Below the pieces are notes generated by a model. It did not search any database and had not been told where the DNA came from. It saw nothing but the letters and a program-made list of their open reading frames with translations. Positions 48,122 through 52,663 of a DNA stretch of 64,000 bases are shown here, piece after piece. The translations under genes were made by a program, and so were the position numbers. How positions within the stretch are numbered: the stretch's first letter is position 1; every line of letters starts with the position of its first letter. The DNA comes from Coleofasciculus sp. FACHB-T130 (GTDB taxonomy: Bacteria > Cyanobacteriota > Cyanobacteriia > Cyanobacteriales > FACHB-T130): contig NZ_JACJOG010000051.1 of the NCBI RefSeq assembly GCF_014695375.1, positions 1 through 64,000 of the forward strand, read 5' to 3'.

Positions 48122-48727
48122 ATGACCCACCACACAGAAGGCTGTCTTCGGGTTGGACAAACCGCCCCGGACTTTACCGCAACCGCTGTGGTCGATCAGG
48201 AATTCAAGACCATCAAACTGTCTGACTATCGTGGCAAATATGTAGTCTTGTTCTTCTATCCTCTTGACTTTACATTCGTTTGTCCTACAGAGATTACAGC
48301 TTTTAGTGACGCTTATTCAAAATTTCAGGATCTCAACACTGAAATCCTTGGTGTCTCTGTAGACAGTGAATTTTCCCACTTGGCATGGATTCAGACAGAC
48401 CGCAAGTCCGGCGGCGTCGGCGACCTAAACTATCCCCTCGTTTCCGATATTAAGAAAGAGATTAGTGCTGCTTTCAATGTCCTCGATCCAGAGGCAGGCA
48501 TTGCACTCCGGGGGCTGTTCATCATTGATAAAGAAGGCGTGATTCAGCACGCTACGATTAACAACCTGGCTTTTGGTCGCAACGTCGATGAGACTCTGCG
48601 GACGCTGCAAGCAATCCAGTACGTACAAACTAACCCCGACGAAGTTTGCCCCGCTGGTTGGCAACCGGGTGACAAGACAATGGTTCCCGACCCCGTCAAG
48701 TCAAAGGTCTTCTTTTCTGCCGTCTAA
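48122..48727 (+). CDS. 2-Cys peroxiredoxin
   Basis: 201 residues with AAGGAG upstream of the ATG. Peroxidatic Cys54 in FVCPTE, resolving Cys176 in EVCPAGW. Both hyperoxidation-sensitive motifs are visible: GGVG (97-100) and a C-terminal Phe-Phe (the YF motif) near residue 197. It reduces H2O2 and peroxides with thioredoxin. Cytosolic. A terminator follows. Confidence 0.96.
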
Positions 48728-48776: not shown

Positions 48777-48813
48777 AAAAACCCCAATACATCTTGTATT
48801 GGGGTTTTTTTTT
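48777..48813 (+). terminator. Rho-independent terminator of the peroxiredoxin gene
   Basis: AAAACCCCAATACA (from 48778) pairs with TGTATTGGGGTTTT (to about 48808), followed by nine T in total. Three-base-scale loop. Strong. Confidence 0.92.
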
Positions 48814-48933
48814 AGGCTTGCGATCGCGTTAACTCCTGTAACGCTGCTTGCACGATATCTAGATGCTGCTGATTATATGCGATCGCGGCTATCCCTTCTC
48901 ACCATTACTCGTGCAGTCGTAGCGACTCACGCC

Positions 48934-49941
48934 TTATACTTTCTGACTCAGCAATTTTTTCTTGAGTTGCTGACACTCTTTTGCTAGCGGTAGGTTTAAT
49001 TCTGTAGCAATGGATAAGGCGCGATCGCAATACTCATTTGCCAGCCCTAAATCGCCTAATCTTTGATGAAGTCTTGCCAAGTTATACAGAGTTATAGGTT
49101 CATCACAACGAGCGACAACTTTTTTAAATATTTTCAGTGCTGTCTGTAAATTCTCTTCAGCTTGTAAATAGTCTTTTAATTCGATTAGGGTATTTCCCAA
49201 GTTACCAATTACCTTTCCTATAATCTCATCATCTCTTATCTCCTCTAGCTTGCTTAACACCTGCTTATAGTTATTGTTTGCCTGCGTGAAGTTTCCTAAG
49301 TAATAATGGACAACAGCTATGTTATTTAATGCTGTAGCTTCCCCAGTGAGGTTGCCTGTCTCTCGTGCAATTGCCAAATGCTGCTGATGGTAATCAATTG
49401 CATGGGGATAATCTCCTATGGATTTATAAGCAATGCCTAGATTGCCCAGCGTTTCCGCTTCTCCAGATCGGTCGCCTCTTGTTCGTACAATAGTCAAATA
49501 CTGTTTAAGATACTCAATCGCTTGATGGTAATCTCCGAAAGATAGGAATGCATTCCCTAAATTGCCTAGAAGTCTAGCATTTACCCTAAGATTTAATTTG
49601 CCTAAAAGTCTCTTGTACAGTTCAATCCTTTCCTGATGATATCCCCAAATTCCCAACTGAATATGTAATTCGTCCTTTGTAGGCGTATTGAGGCGAATAG
49701 AAAGGATATCACTAGCTCTTCTCCAATTCTCAACTTCACATAAATGATGAAACGCTTCTAAGTAGCCTCGCACTTTCTCTAAATTAGTAGCATCAGGCTT
49801 TGGTTTGTACTTCATAAGCCAGTTTACAACTGCTATGTAATCATCGAGCTTACTATCTAGGACTGAAGCCGCCAGATAGGGTGGATTGATGGCAAGTTCC
49901 GTGAGAATTAAATTCCCTGGTGGTGTAATGCTATCTGTCAT
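48934..49941 (-). CDS. TPR half of a split STAND protein
   Basis: 335 residues from the ATG at 49941. TPR repeats fill about 115-315 (LGNLGNAFLSFGDYHQAIEYL, then similar units). The start MTDSITPPGN is not TPR-like and no Shine-Dalgarno site precedes it. It is in the same frame as the NB-ARC gene just upstream: after that gene's TAA (49963-49965) there are seven sense codons and then this ATG. The family usually has both halves in one protein (NB-ARC then TPR). Expression as a separate protein is therefore uncertain. Confidence 0.75.
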   Translation of the reverse strand: MTDSITPPGNLILTELAINPPYLAASVLDSKLDDYIAVVNWLMKYKPKPDATNLEKVRGYLEAFHHLCEVENWRRASDILSIRLNTPTKDELHIQLGIWGYHQERIELYKRLLGKLNLRVNARLLGNLGNAFLSFGDYHQAIEYLKQYLTIVRTRGDRSGEAETLGNLGIAYKSIGDYPHAIDYHQQHLAIARETGNLTGEATALNNIAVVHYYLGNFTQANNNYKQVLSKLEEIRDDEIIGKVIGNLGNTLIELKDYLQAEENLQTALKIFKKVVARCDEPITLYNLARLHQRLGDLGLANEYCDRALSIATELNLPLAKECQQLKKKLLSQKV

Positions 49942-49962
49942 TACTGAGAGTGTCGTAGTTGT

Positions 49963-51426
49963 TTAGTTATCTCTATAAAGCTTTAATCGATGAGCGATCG
50001 CTACACTGCGAATTAGATTGTGTTGCCCGAAAAGACGCTCATCTTCGTGGTTAATTCCTCTATCCTCAACGAGATAGCGCTCGCGTAATGCCTGCAACGC
50101 ATCCTCGCACCGCTGCTGATCGTAACCCCGATATTCTAACTGACTCAGCCACCAACTCTCGGCTACCTCGCAGCGGTACACTGAGGCAGTGCAAAGCATA
50201 AAATAGGCATCATAAACATCGTTTTTTAGCCTGTCAAAGCTTTTATCAAGACGTATTTTAACTTGATTTTGCAATTCATGGCTGTATCGCTCTAGGTGCC
50301 AGCGATCGTCTTCTCCTTTAACTTTTCCTTCTTTACGGGCTAAGTCTAAAGCATTTTTTACCTCTTCAATCTCATTGCGGTATTTTTTCCAATAAGCTCG
50401 GACATTCTGCTGATAAGACTCTGCAATTTCTCCGACAATTACCCGCAACGCTAAAGGATGTCCGTCGTAGACTTCCCCAATCTGCCGAAGGGGACTATTA
50501 GGTGATTCTAGATCGTCCTCTAGCCTAGCTTTTCGGAACAATGCCACCTGCTCTGGTATTTCTAATCCTTTTAATAGTTGATGATGCCAAAAATTTTGAT
50601 ACCGGGAACATTCCAGCTTCAACTTCACTGGAAAATCTTGGGAAGTGATGATTATCCGACTCTGGCAAAATGGTTCTGACAACAAACTTAGAAAAAACTT
50701 CCTCCACTCATCATCTGCAAAATCATTCCAGCGAGTGTCTTCGCTTTTGCCTTTCGTTAGTAACTCCTCAAAAGAATCCATCAATACCAAATACTTATGT
50801 TCGCACAAGCATTTGACTAACTGCCGTCGCAGTTGCTCTGGCTTGCGCTCATCTTGTGGTGGCTTTTCTCCCCATTCCTCCAGCCATCTAGCCGCAACAC
50901 TAGCAAAATATGAATCTTTATTCCTATCTTCAAAATTCTCCCTATGTTCCGTCCAATCTCCCCGCAACTCAAAAACTAATCGTTCAGCGAGAGCAGTTTT
51001 GCCGATACCTGTTATCCCAACCAGTATCAAGACGCGACAATCACCCAATACCTTATTACTCAACTCTTTGACTAATATTTCTCGGCTTTCCCCTACCCAG
51101 TTATCGTTATAAGCAGAAAACTGTATTGGTGAAGCAGGTTGCGAGTTTGAACTACGTTCAACAACTTCTTCCCAGTTGACTCCTAAAACTTGGCAGAAGG
51201 CTTTGAAAGACTCAGTATTAATGGGCTTTTTTCCTTGCAGGAAACGTTTCCAAGTTATTAGTGAGACACCGTTGGCTAGTTGCTCGGAGCCTTCCCAGTT
51301 TTTGTCTGGCTCTAGAACCCTACTAGCTGCTTTAAGCCATTTTTCGTCCTCTACAGTCCATCCCTTTTCGTTCCTGGCTTGCTTAATTCTTGCTAGTCCC
51401 TTCTGTGAAGCTCTGAGCGAAGGCAT
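49963..51426 (-). CDS. HTH-NB-ARC STAND NTPase, interrupted by an in-frame stop
   Basis: 487 residues. Region 1-90 is a cro/C1-like helix-turn-helix (SLITWKRFLQGKKPIN). The NB-ARC NTPase follows: Walker A GITGIGKT (137-144), Walker B LVLMD (213-217), sensor RIIITS (257-262), GxP-like HPLALRV. A helical domain closes it and the frame ends in TAA at 49963. Seven codons later the same frame continues as TPRs for 335 residues. STAND proteins sense a ligand by repeats and oligomerise to act. Here the sensor half is cut off. The ATG at 51426 abuts a strong promoter (see below). Confidence 0.88.
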   Translation of the reverse strand: MPSLRASQKGLARIKQARNEKGWTVEDEKWLKAASRVLEPDKNWEGSEQLANGVSLITWKRFLQGKKPINTESFKAFCQVLGVNWEEVVERSSNSQPASPIQFSAYNDNWVGESREILVKELSNKVLGDCRVLILVGITGIGKTALAERLVFELRGDWTEHRENFEDRNKDSYFASVAARWLEEWGEKPPQDERKPEQLRRQLVKCLCEHKYLVLMDSFEELLTKGKSEDTRWNDFADDEWRKFFLSLLSEPFCQSRIIITSQDFPVKLKLECSRYQNFWHHQLLKGLEIPEQVALFRKARLEDDLESPNSPLRQIGEVYDGHPLALRVIVGEIAESYQQNVRAYWKKYRNEIEEVKNALDLARKEGKVKGEDDRWHLERYSHELQNQVKIRLDKSFDRLKNDVYDAYFMLCTASVYRCEVAESWWLSQLEYRGYDQQRCEDALQALRERYLVEDRGINHEDERLFGQHNLIRSVAIAHRLKLYRDN

Positions 51427-51454
51427 TTATACAACCTAAGTTTTTGATTGTCAA
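51426..51454 (-). promoter_or_regulatory. Near-consensus promoter abutting the STAND start codon
   Basis: On the minus strand TTGACA (51449-51454) and TATAAA (51426-51431) are separated by exactly 17 bases. The last A of the -10 is the A of the predicted ATG. An RNA starting seven bases later would begin inside the coding region. Confidence 0.45.
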
Positions 51455-51599
51455 GGTCAATTTTAGCTCAGTCTCACACTGAGCCTAATCTGCGTCTGGT
51501 GAAACTTGAGCAAATCAAGGATTCTGGATTGTGGGGGACAGCAAACAGCAAATTGCTTCTTCCTGGTAAAAACGAGCGCTCTGAATTAGGACTAAGACA

Positions 51600-51929
51600 A
51601 TGCAAGCTCAAAATTTTGTTCAACTGGAACTGCCTGTAAACCTGGAGAAAATTGACTACCTCAAGCCAATGCAAGAAGCAATTCAAAATATCCTAGACTT
51701 AATCTGGAAAGGAGTAATTTTGCAGATTTCGCCACCTGCTACGAAACATCTAATGAGTCAGCATGGAAAACTCATTGCTTTTAGTAATGGCGAAGCTTAC
51801 ATTAAAGTTTCATCGCTAGCGATTTTCCGAAGGGCTGAGAAGAAGTTGCCAGATGTAGAAGTCGCTTTCAAGAAAGCTTTTGGTTCCAGAGTCAAAGTTA
51901 GTTTAGTCATTGACAAAACTCTCAATTGA
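51600..51929 (+). CDS. Small protein like the C-terminal domain of cyanobacterial DnaX
   Basis: 109 residues. The pattern MSQHGKLIAF, EAYIKVSSLAIFRRAEKKLPDVEVAFKKAFG and KVSLVID resembles the last domain of cyanobacterial DNA polymerase III tau (MSQHGxLIxF, then a Leu-rich IS strand, then a helix ending in AF). No ATPase domain is present. It is divergent from the STAND gene and followed by a tiny overlapping frame. It could be a stand-alone relative that binds the clamp loader or its partners. Family call is from memory of one pattern. Confidence 0.5.
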   Translation: MQAQNFVQLELPVNLEKIDYLKPMQEAIQNILDLIWKGVILQISPPATKHLMSQHGKLIAFSNGEAYIKVSSLAIFRRAEKKLPDVEVAFKKAFGSRVKVSLVIDKTLN

Positions 51930-52081
51930 TAAGAAGAATAGGCCAAGAGCTTAAAATTAAGTCGCAACTCCAACTCAAAGGGGATGCGATTTTTGTTGGG
52001 ATGAAGGATGCGATCGCTCTCTCGTCCACGATTCGCCTCGGTTCGCAAAAAAGTAAAGAACTATTACAATTACAGCAATAA
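51926..52081 (+). CDS. Possible small protein overlapping the DnaX-C-like gene
   Basis: 51 residues from a TTG that overlaps the preceding stop as TTGA, giving IGQELKIKSQLQLKGDAIF then DAIALSS and KSKELLQLQQ. The frame is clean and the spacing to the PrxQ-like gene is 18 bases. No domain recognised; part of the text comes from a HIP1 site (DAIAL). It may be translated by coupling; it may also be chance. Confidence 0.3.
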   Translation: MIRRIGQELKIKSQLQLKGDAIFVGMKDAIALSSTIRLGSQKSKELLQLQQ

Positions 52082-52099
52082 GACCAAAATGATATACCG

Positions 52100-52642
52100 A
52101 TGCTGACATCTACTGACTTTAGCGGACTGTTAAATCAACGCTTCTTTGAGAATTTCTTGCCGATTCCAGCAACCAGCCGTTTAGACCTGGGAGAAACCAC
52201 TCCAGCATTTGAACTGCCGGACATCACCAATGGCGGTAAAGTCAAGTTATCGGATTACAGGGGAAAGCAACCTGTCATCCTTGCCTTTACCCGCATCTTC
52301 ACCGAAAAGCAATATTGTCCCTTTTGCTTTCCTCATATCAAAGCGCTAAATGAAAACTACGAGCGCTTTACCAGTTTGGGCGTCGAGGTTTTGATGATTA
52401 CCAGTACCGACGAACAGCAGAGCAAAACGGTTGTCAAAGACCTGGGGTTAAAGATGCCCTTGCTCAGCGACCCCAGTTGTCGGACGTTTCGAGCTTACTG
52501 TACGGGTCAAGCTTTGGGTGCGCCTCTGCCAGCTCAATTCGTACTGGATAAACAGGGAATTCTGCGCTATAAACATTTGTTCTCCTTCCTTGACCATAAT
52601 GCTGAAGTGGAGAAGCTGCTAGAGACGCTCAGCGGATTGTAG
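52100..52642 (+). CDS. Peroxiredoxin-like (BCP/PrxQ-type thiol peroxidase)
   Basis: 180 residues with the AhpC/TSA fold. It contains GETTPAFELPDI, then the redox motif YCPFC (Cys73, Cys76) in place of the usual VCTTEAC spacing, and later LLSDPSCRTFRAYC, and FVLDKQGILRYK. The CxxC spacing is more like thioredoxin-type reductases than classical 2-Cys Prx. It should reduce hydroperoxides or protein disulfides. It follows the tiny frame at 51926-52081. A bidirectional hairpin lies at the 3' end. Confidence 0.85.
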   Translation: MLTSTDFSGLLNQRFFENFLPIPATSRLDLGETTPAFELPDITNGGKVKLSDYRGKQPVILAFTRIFTEKQYCPFCFPHIKALNENYERFTSLGVEVLMITSTDEQQSKTVVKDLGLKMPLLSDPSCRTFRAYCTGQALGAPLPAQFVLDKQGILRYKHLFSFLDHNAEVEKLLETLSGL

Positions 52643-52663
52643 ATTACTGAAATTAATACGAAT

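Follow-up and report, generated by a model that had tools for sequence, protein, structure and literature searches.

A probable two-gene STAND switch with its arm-sensor on a separate gene in the cyanobacterium Coleofasciculus sp. FACHB-T130

In MalT, Apaf-1, the plant nucleotide-binding leucine-rich-repeat proteins (NLRs), PH0952, and LypB, though not in CED-4, nucleotide switch and sensor are one chain. In such one-chain proteins, the holding and the release of the switch by its sensor are hard to separate. The STAND NTPases (signal transduction ATPases with numerous domains) are typically coupled to their repeats within one polypeptide (PMC8195603, introduction); in MalT, the nucleotide-binding oligomerization domain (NOD), arm, and sensor each do a different job, and the arm and sensor, purified together as one polypeptide, suffice to bind the inducer with high affinity (PMC4381067, in part). 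The nearest separate arrangement among STAND conflict systems, in the text sections consulted, pairs a vWA protein carrying tetratricopeptide repeats (TPRs) with a TIR-AP-ATPase encoded by another gene (Kaur et al., 2020, PMC7159879; Kaur et al., 2021, PMC8195603). The subject here is a pair of neighboring genes, A and B, in a 64,000-nt stretch of the Coleofasciculus sp. FACHB-T130 genome (contig NZ_JACJOG010000051.1, positions 1 to 64,000; “the window”). Gene A encodes a helix-turn-helix (HTH)-like domain and an NB-ARC switch, gene B a helical domain followed by TPRs. The favored reading, with a probability of roughly 0.75, is that together they make an intact two-subunit, NLR-like STAND switch whose arm-sensor is separately encoded. 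A split of this kind is absent from the text examined of PMC7159879 and PMC8195603, and no description of the family was found in the parts of the open-access literature searched.

Both genes are real coding sequence by homology (coordinates in the table). The initial annotation had described one HTH-NB-ARC frame ending at the TAA at 49963-49965 and resuming seven codons downstream for 335 residues of TPRs. The open reading frame (ORF) map bears out the stop and the resumption (B, 49941..48934): A and B share one phase on the minus strand, with a single stop separating the two frames. The TPRs are likewise evident (Pfam TPR_12, 1.1e-32), but they do not fill the 335 residues; the first ~115 are a separate helical region, predicted with confidence, and the TPR helices begin at about residue 118.

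Features of the A-B locus and its surroundings (positions in the window; strand and basis where available).
Feature	Position	Strand	Basis
Gene A: HTH - NB-ARC/WHD protein, 487 aa, ATG start, TAA stop	49963..51426	-	ORF call, Pfam, model, alignment
Cro/C1-like HTH domain, A residues 1-95, effector/adaptor position	51142..51426	-	weak Pfam HTH matches; helices in model
Complete NOD (nucleotide-binding domain, NBD; helical domain 1, HD1; winged-helix domain, WHD), A residues 106-487	49966..51111	-	structural alignment of model
P-loop GITGIGKT, A residues 137-144	50995..51018	-	G137, G140, G142, K143 invariant in 53 sequences, this A included
MHD-like motif QHNLIR, A residues 468-473	50008..50025	-	H469 and R473 invariant in the same 53 sequences
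Gap from A stop to B start, 21 nt, seven codons TTTTLSV	49942..49962	-	sequence
Gene B: arm-position domain and putative TPR sensor, 335 aa, ATG start	48934..49941	-	ORF call, Pfam, model
N-terminal segment, B residues ~6-27, candidate docking segment	49861..49926	-	family profile; function inferred
Conserved helical domain, B residues ~28-115, STAND arm (helical domain 2, HD2) position	49597..49860	-	family hidden Markov model; directly after WHD in fused relatives
TPR repeats, putative sensor, B residues ~118-334	48940..49590	-	Pfam, model, fold search
Peroxiredoxin-like gene, one slot flank	48122-48727		named by eye
Redoxin-like gene, other slot flank	52100-52642		named by eye
No DNA match in congener G001: A, B, most of small gene 51600-51929	48795..51891		DNA comparison
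Continuous 80.5% DNA identity to G389 slot: A's HTH codons and upstream flank	51129..52645		DNA comparison

Homologues of A were collected from several sources (loci are given L numbers, genomes G numbers). Among 386 genomes of the phylum, 42 matched at E 1e-30, and within the organism's own family three of six at E 1e-20, its own genome being included in both. A search of named species genomes with an alignment gave the best 80 loci of 154 relatives (a first contig scan of named species genomes with a single sequence had returned zero); each of the other searches that yielded loci contributed its top matches, up to a limit of 30. A plasmid search gave 9 records, in short pieces at 68-78%. Rows were drawn from L001 and L012-L151, up to three from any one locus, where an A-profile domain scored at least 150 bits, after removal of 24 duplicates. 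The 110 distinct A rows so obtained are highly related and are not independent events. With “adjacent” meaning a B ORF start within 160 nt of the A stop, 83 have an adjacent separate B, 5 a separate but distant one, 7 are fused to B, 13 have no B found nearby, and 2 end with their contigs; one of the five distant cases (L036) may be adjacent, its B frame being open at the junction with no start picked. The joined HTH-NB-ARC-TPR protein, which the initial annotation took to be the usual form, is found in just those 7. Orthologue comparison had been set beforehand as one test that could tell against one split gene; B proves to be separate in 88/110, so that the orthologues are nearly but not always two genes. 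Of the three options then offered, a decaying gene, a read-through switch, or a two-piece protein, only the last fits these counts. The two-gene layout, as judged by this comparison, is kept in many filamentous cyanobacteria, among the relatives being the culturable Oscillatoria sp. PCC 10802 (L110). The split pair also occurs in Thiomargarita and Parabeggiatoa, both giant sulfur bacteria, and in a metagenome-assembled genome (MAG) labeled Flavobacterium, perhaps mislabeled (L134, L139, and L105).

The junctions themselves are compact. All but five of the 83 adjacent B genes (78/83) start between -50 and +60 nt from the A stop, and for 16 listed near relatives the start of B lies at -8 or at +15 to +30 nt. 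The B start was taken as the ATG nearest the junction, which favors adjacency; the phase of the B ORF is independent of that choice. Overlapping junctions are concentrated at -8 nt (17) and -4 nt (12), which has the appearance of a coupling-type layout. The non-overlapping ones are distributed over phases 0, 1, and 2 as 11/17/19 (p 0.33), in-phase junctions being no commoner than chance; because all three phases are represented in this way, the shared phase at the present locus, about a one-in-three event, can be put down to chance. In the starred clade of the tree that holds the window's gene, all 16 rows are split, in phases 4/4/8; with L082, which lies outside the 16-row clade, nine of the A genes end in TAA and eight in TGA. 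The tree, from a quick IQ-TREE run, covers 108 of the 110 rows; several of its branches are long, and its root belongs to the drawing. The ATG of B falls at the same residue in the window, L012, and L013. It is true, as first noted, that no Shine-Dalgarno (SD)-like motif precedes this ATG, but this carries little weight, since A has none either and neither do 54/83 of the B starts in split pairs (29/83 have one).

Gene A has the features of a STAND protein of the NB-ARC/AP-ATPase type: a P-loop NTPase core with an NB-ARC signature (Pfam, 3e-07, 30.4 bits against a cut-off of 23.5), the NOD fold, and an MHD-type motif. Its predicted structure (pLDDT 85.8) aligns over residues ~97-487 with Apaf-1, NRC1, MalT, and PH0952 at Z 19-25. 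In VIA-align 2, the values are 25.0 for NRC1 (8bv0; model residues 106-483), 22.5 for Apaf-1 (3sfz; model 97-487 on chain 107-458), 21.7 for MalT (8bob; model 103-487), and 21.5 for PH0952 (6mfv; aligned through residue 487). The QHNLIR sequence, which from its position we take to correspond to MHD, is followed almost at once by the end of the protein: from its H to the C-terminus there are 19 residues, and in 82 split pairs there are 6-32 (median 20). On the model, the cut between A and B is at the end of the winged-helix domain, directly past this motif, and B would therefore hold the STAND arm position plus the sensor. Sensor repeats are absent from A's own polypeptide, which ends past the motif; the repeats are in B. 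The HTH label of A's N-terminal domain comes from weak Pfam matches (HTH_31 at 0.0023 for the window's A, under the Pfam cut-off; HTH_3 at best 2.9e-5 among 22 members), and a PDB sequence search with this domain gave no match at E 0.1. The same genome has a second HTH-NB-ARC protein (a 446-aa frame; L002:1465-3997, contig C23) that also ends past the NB-ARC region; it is followed directly by a serine/threonine-kinase-like gene (named by eye), with no TPR gene in that place.

Gene B is predicted with confidence nearly throughout (pLDDT 95.6), and as a complete fold when predicted alone. Its profile matches the TPR part of PH0952 at 7e-27, and it matches two PADLOC models (PDLC01169 “TPR” at 7.6e-53, C3a156 at 1.7e-14). 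Across relatives its length ranges from 87 to 1167 aa, the shortest perhaps being truncated.

A second line of evidence comes from the company that B keeps. The B N-terminal domain was found as 36 modules in 25/386 genomes, and all 36 are beside, behind, or inside an A, 35 of them placed by comparison with A positions and one (in G117) by reading its locus; the figure holds for modules at E 1e-12 or better, and more divergent lone B genes would escape it. Over 81 split pairs, distances between A cores and between B N-terminal domains are correlated (r 0.551; best of 2000 permutations, 0.233). For the 45 HTH-type pairs, the correlation of A core with B is 0.644, against 0.647 for A core with its own N-terminal domain, the permutations having been made on the 81-pair set only. 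By these measures, A and B are inherited together.

Natural fusions, where they occur, are always in the order A-B. Separate B proteins begin with a segment of consensus tpsgelvlakLgi, the profile match starting at position 6 or earlier in 75/83; 5/7 fusions are without it (match starting at 14-23), while the L131 and L148 fusions, whose neighbors in the tree are mostly split, retain it. This is suggestive of a docking segment, on a small number of fusion events. In L104, A has a 190-residue tail past the MHD-like motif that ends like the C-terminus of B, with no B N-domain found; it is likely a deletion-fusion.

Taken with what is known of STAND biology, these observations suggest how the pair could work. 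A would supply the complete nucleotide switch (NBD-HD1-WHD) together with the HTH-like domain, which takes the place of the effector. B would dock on the WHD/NBD face of A, perhaps by its conserved N-terminal segment, and keep the switch closed; a ligand on the TPRs of B would cause the arm to let go, A would exchange ADP for ATP and oligomerize, and output would come from its N-terminal domain. That B acts on A is very probable, and that it does so as a ligand sensor is probable, if less so; binding, autoinhibition, ligand sensing, and the ligand-driven nucleotide exchange and oligomerization of A are in each case what we infer by analogy with characterized STAND proteins. Gene B might then be a natural equivalent of the arm-sensor piece of MalT, and the natural cut between WHD and arm would allow hold and release to be studied by mixing two purified proteins.

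Several observations weigh against this interpretation. The 13/110 A genes with no B module found nearby (five of them had <1.7 kb left to search) may mean that A can function alone, or their B may lie at another place in those genomes. Equating the N-terminal domain of B with the STAND arm is a matter of position: the best 50 matches of the B fold search are filled by TPR proteins, with no STAND arm among them for this domain. A fused group of four (L032, L051, L069, L070) is near the base of the tree as drawn, so either the split or the fused form may be the older. Damage is apparent in some relatives, whose B ORFs are short (L074, 128 aa; L077, 87; L082, 161; L116, 121). The A frame is short in L081 (337 aa), which is in the window gene's own clade; a TGA interrupts the A of L038; and the A frame is broken in L014/L089, from a Trichodesmium MAG, with HNLIR just downstream in another frame, which could be either a real lesion or an assembly error. 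Finally, known defence assignments for A were sought in PADLOC and NCBIfam, and the window's A had no usable match (in PADLOC, only PDC-S73 at 0.0023).

The alternative that survives best is that A and B are two real genes, but that B serves other partners, as their scaffold or recruiter, while A is switched by something else. CED-4, held by CED-9, offers a parallel. TPRs are commonly peptide-binding scaffolds, LGN being the top match of the B fold search and kinesin light chain appearing lower down, and 13/110 A genes have no B found nearby. In natural fusions, however, B occupies the place of the STAND sensor; all the B modules found go with an A; and B differs widely in length among relatives and can be present in several tandem copies, as expected of sensors. 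A scaffold role is accordingly considered unlikely.

Far less probable is that one HTH-NB-ARC-TPR gene was recently interrupted by a nonsense mutation, whether as a pseudogene or through a sequencing error, although the locus at first glance suggests it: two frames in one phase, seven codons apart, the second without an SD motif, with fused relatives in existence and short B ORFs or broken A frames in some others. A lesion unique to this copy, with close relatives intact and joined, was looked for as the mark of a pseudogene and rejected, the boundary being split in 16/16 clade rows with all three phases represented. The ATG of B, moreover, matches in position the B starts of L012 and L013. 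The conserved NTPase residues are present in the window's A, which is row 1 of the 53-sequence alignment, so that invariant residues are present there by construction; the fold of B is complete and confidently predicted. Decay of this copy, one of the options of the initial annotation, is very unlikely for these last two reasons, as well as from the split orthologues. Codon positions 1 and 2 of B are also more conserved than position 3 against each of 13 relatives, a pattern that mostly reflects older history. That the window holds two intact genes rather than one broken gene is nearly certain, and the case is a caution against taking any ORF pair parted by an in-frame stop for a broken gene, since a conserved operon may look the same.

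Programmed read-through of the stop to give some joined A-B protein, also offered initially, has slighter prospects still: at this locus the two frames do share a phase and are parted by a single stop, but 72/83 adjacent pairs are out of phase, which excludes a conserved read-through, and among the 11 in-phase pairs the stop is TAA, TGA, or TAG, with extra stops before B in L081, L119, and L150.

What output the switch might have can be approached through longer relatives of A. Ten of 13 listed were scanned: 8 have PNP_UDP_1, two of these with SEFIR/TIR as well, and the other two have SEFIR/TIR, one with an EAD8 tail. Because relatives carry such domains there, the N-terminal position is regarded as the effector or adaptor slot, occupied by an HTH-like domain here and by PNP or SEFIR/TIR domains elsewhere. 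Of three of these compared with PADLOC, all match a PN-superfamily effector model and one also bSEFIR. By way of these relatives, and so indirectly, a role in defence or cell death is likely, and for the pair itself an immune-type role is somewhat favored.

The pair is in a chromosomal slot whose contents vary. In the congener G001 (L172) the flanks are 96% and 91% identical to the window and the pair is missing; the small gene at 51600-51929 still matches there over about its final 38 bases, and for this reason the empty slot looks like a deletion. Two members of the family (G389 and G390) carry another split pair at this position, likewise oriented, with A identities of 45% and 51%; in two further members, G387 and G388, the two flanking genes are on different contigs. 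Below 51129, the similarity to G389 drops to short, weaker matches, which puts a mosaic breakpoint where HTH and NB-ARC meet. In protein sequence, the HTH domain shares 72% identity with that of L142, the same A as in G389 (80% in another alignment), and at most 48% with those of the other HTH-type pairs compared; the A core is closest to L082 and L072 (67% and 66%). The pair thus has the look of a mosaic, with switch core and sensor replaced together behind a resident HTH domain.

B modules can also be multiplied. Two or more on the same strand follow A in 15/110 rows; some of these have two modules in a single ORF, and the second module of L089 goes with another A. In the clearest case, at L178:1949-13836 (G232, contig C1), one A, the same gene as L016 and taken as PNP-type from its start and tree place, is followed by five B ORFs holding seven B modules, each ORF overlapping the preceding one if the first possible start is taken. 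A separate sensor would permit sensor exchange or multiplication, as in this array of one switch and five sensors, and such arrays raise directly whether one switch serves many sensors. A broader proposal can be made tentatively: a modular NLR system in filamentous cyanobacteria, with one switch controlled in trans by separate arm-sensors that dock by an N-terminal segment most fusions have lost, with whole pairs exchanged at one fixed site in the chromosome and sensors present in tandem copies (as many as five ORFs seen). If this is true, one effector-bearing switch could read several triggers.

Among known systems, MalT-type STAND ATPases have the same order of modules, with a NOD ending in the WHD, then arm, then sensor (PMC4381067, in part), but in a single protein; in the present pair the break falls between WHD and arm, and what follows is encoded by a gene of its own. 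The HTH also differs, being N-terminal and Cro/C1-like (on weak matches) in the window. MalT/LuxR-type STAND regulators are defined by a C-terminal LuxR-type HTH after the sensor; here no HTH family is among the Pfam matches of B, and the HTH-like domain is at the N-terminus of A. Apaf-1, CED-4, and the plant NLRs (AP-ATPase clade) share the NB-ARC fold and an MHD-like motif with A, and in CED-4 there is already a case of an NB-ARC protein to which no repeats are attached; the window pair differs from this group in being bacterial, with an N-terminal HTH-like domain and with its TPRs on the partner encoded by the next gene. PH0952 (6mfv), an archaeal STAND protein with a TPR sensor, similarly combines NOD and TPRs, but in one chain. 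The STAND conflict systems of multicellular bacteria resemble the pair in their filamentous cyanobacterial hosts and in the PNP, TIR/SEFIR, and EAD8 domains of A's relatives (PMC7159879, PMC8195603, in part). The bacterial CARD-NLR system LypABC is another NLR-like operon in bacteria, with ATPase and TPR-like repeats on one chain in LypB (PMC13236601, in part). The parts of the A-B pair belong to a known STAND kind; their division between two genes is a new variation on it.
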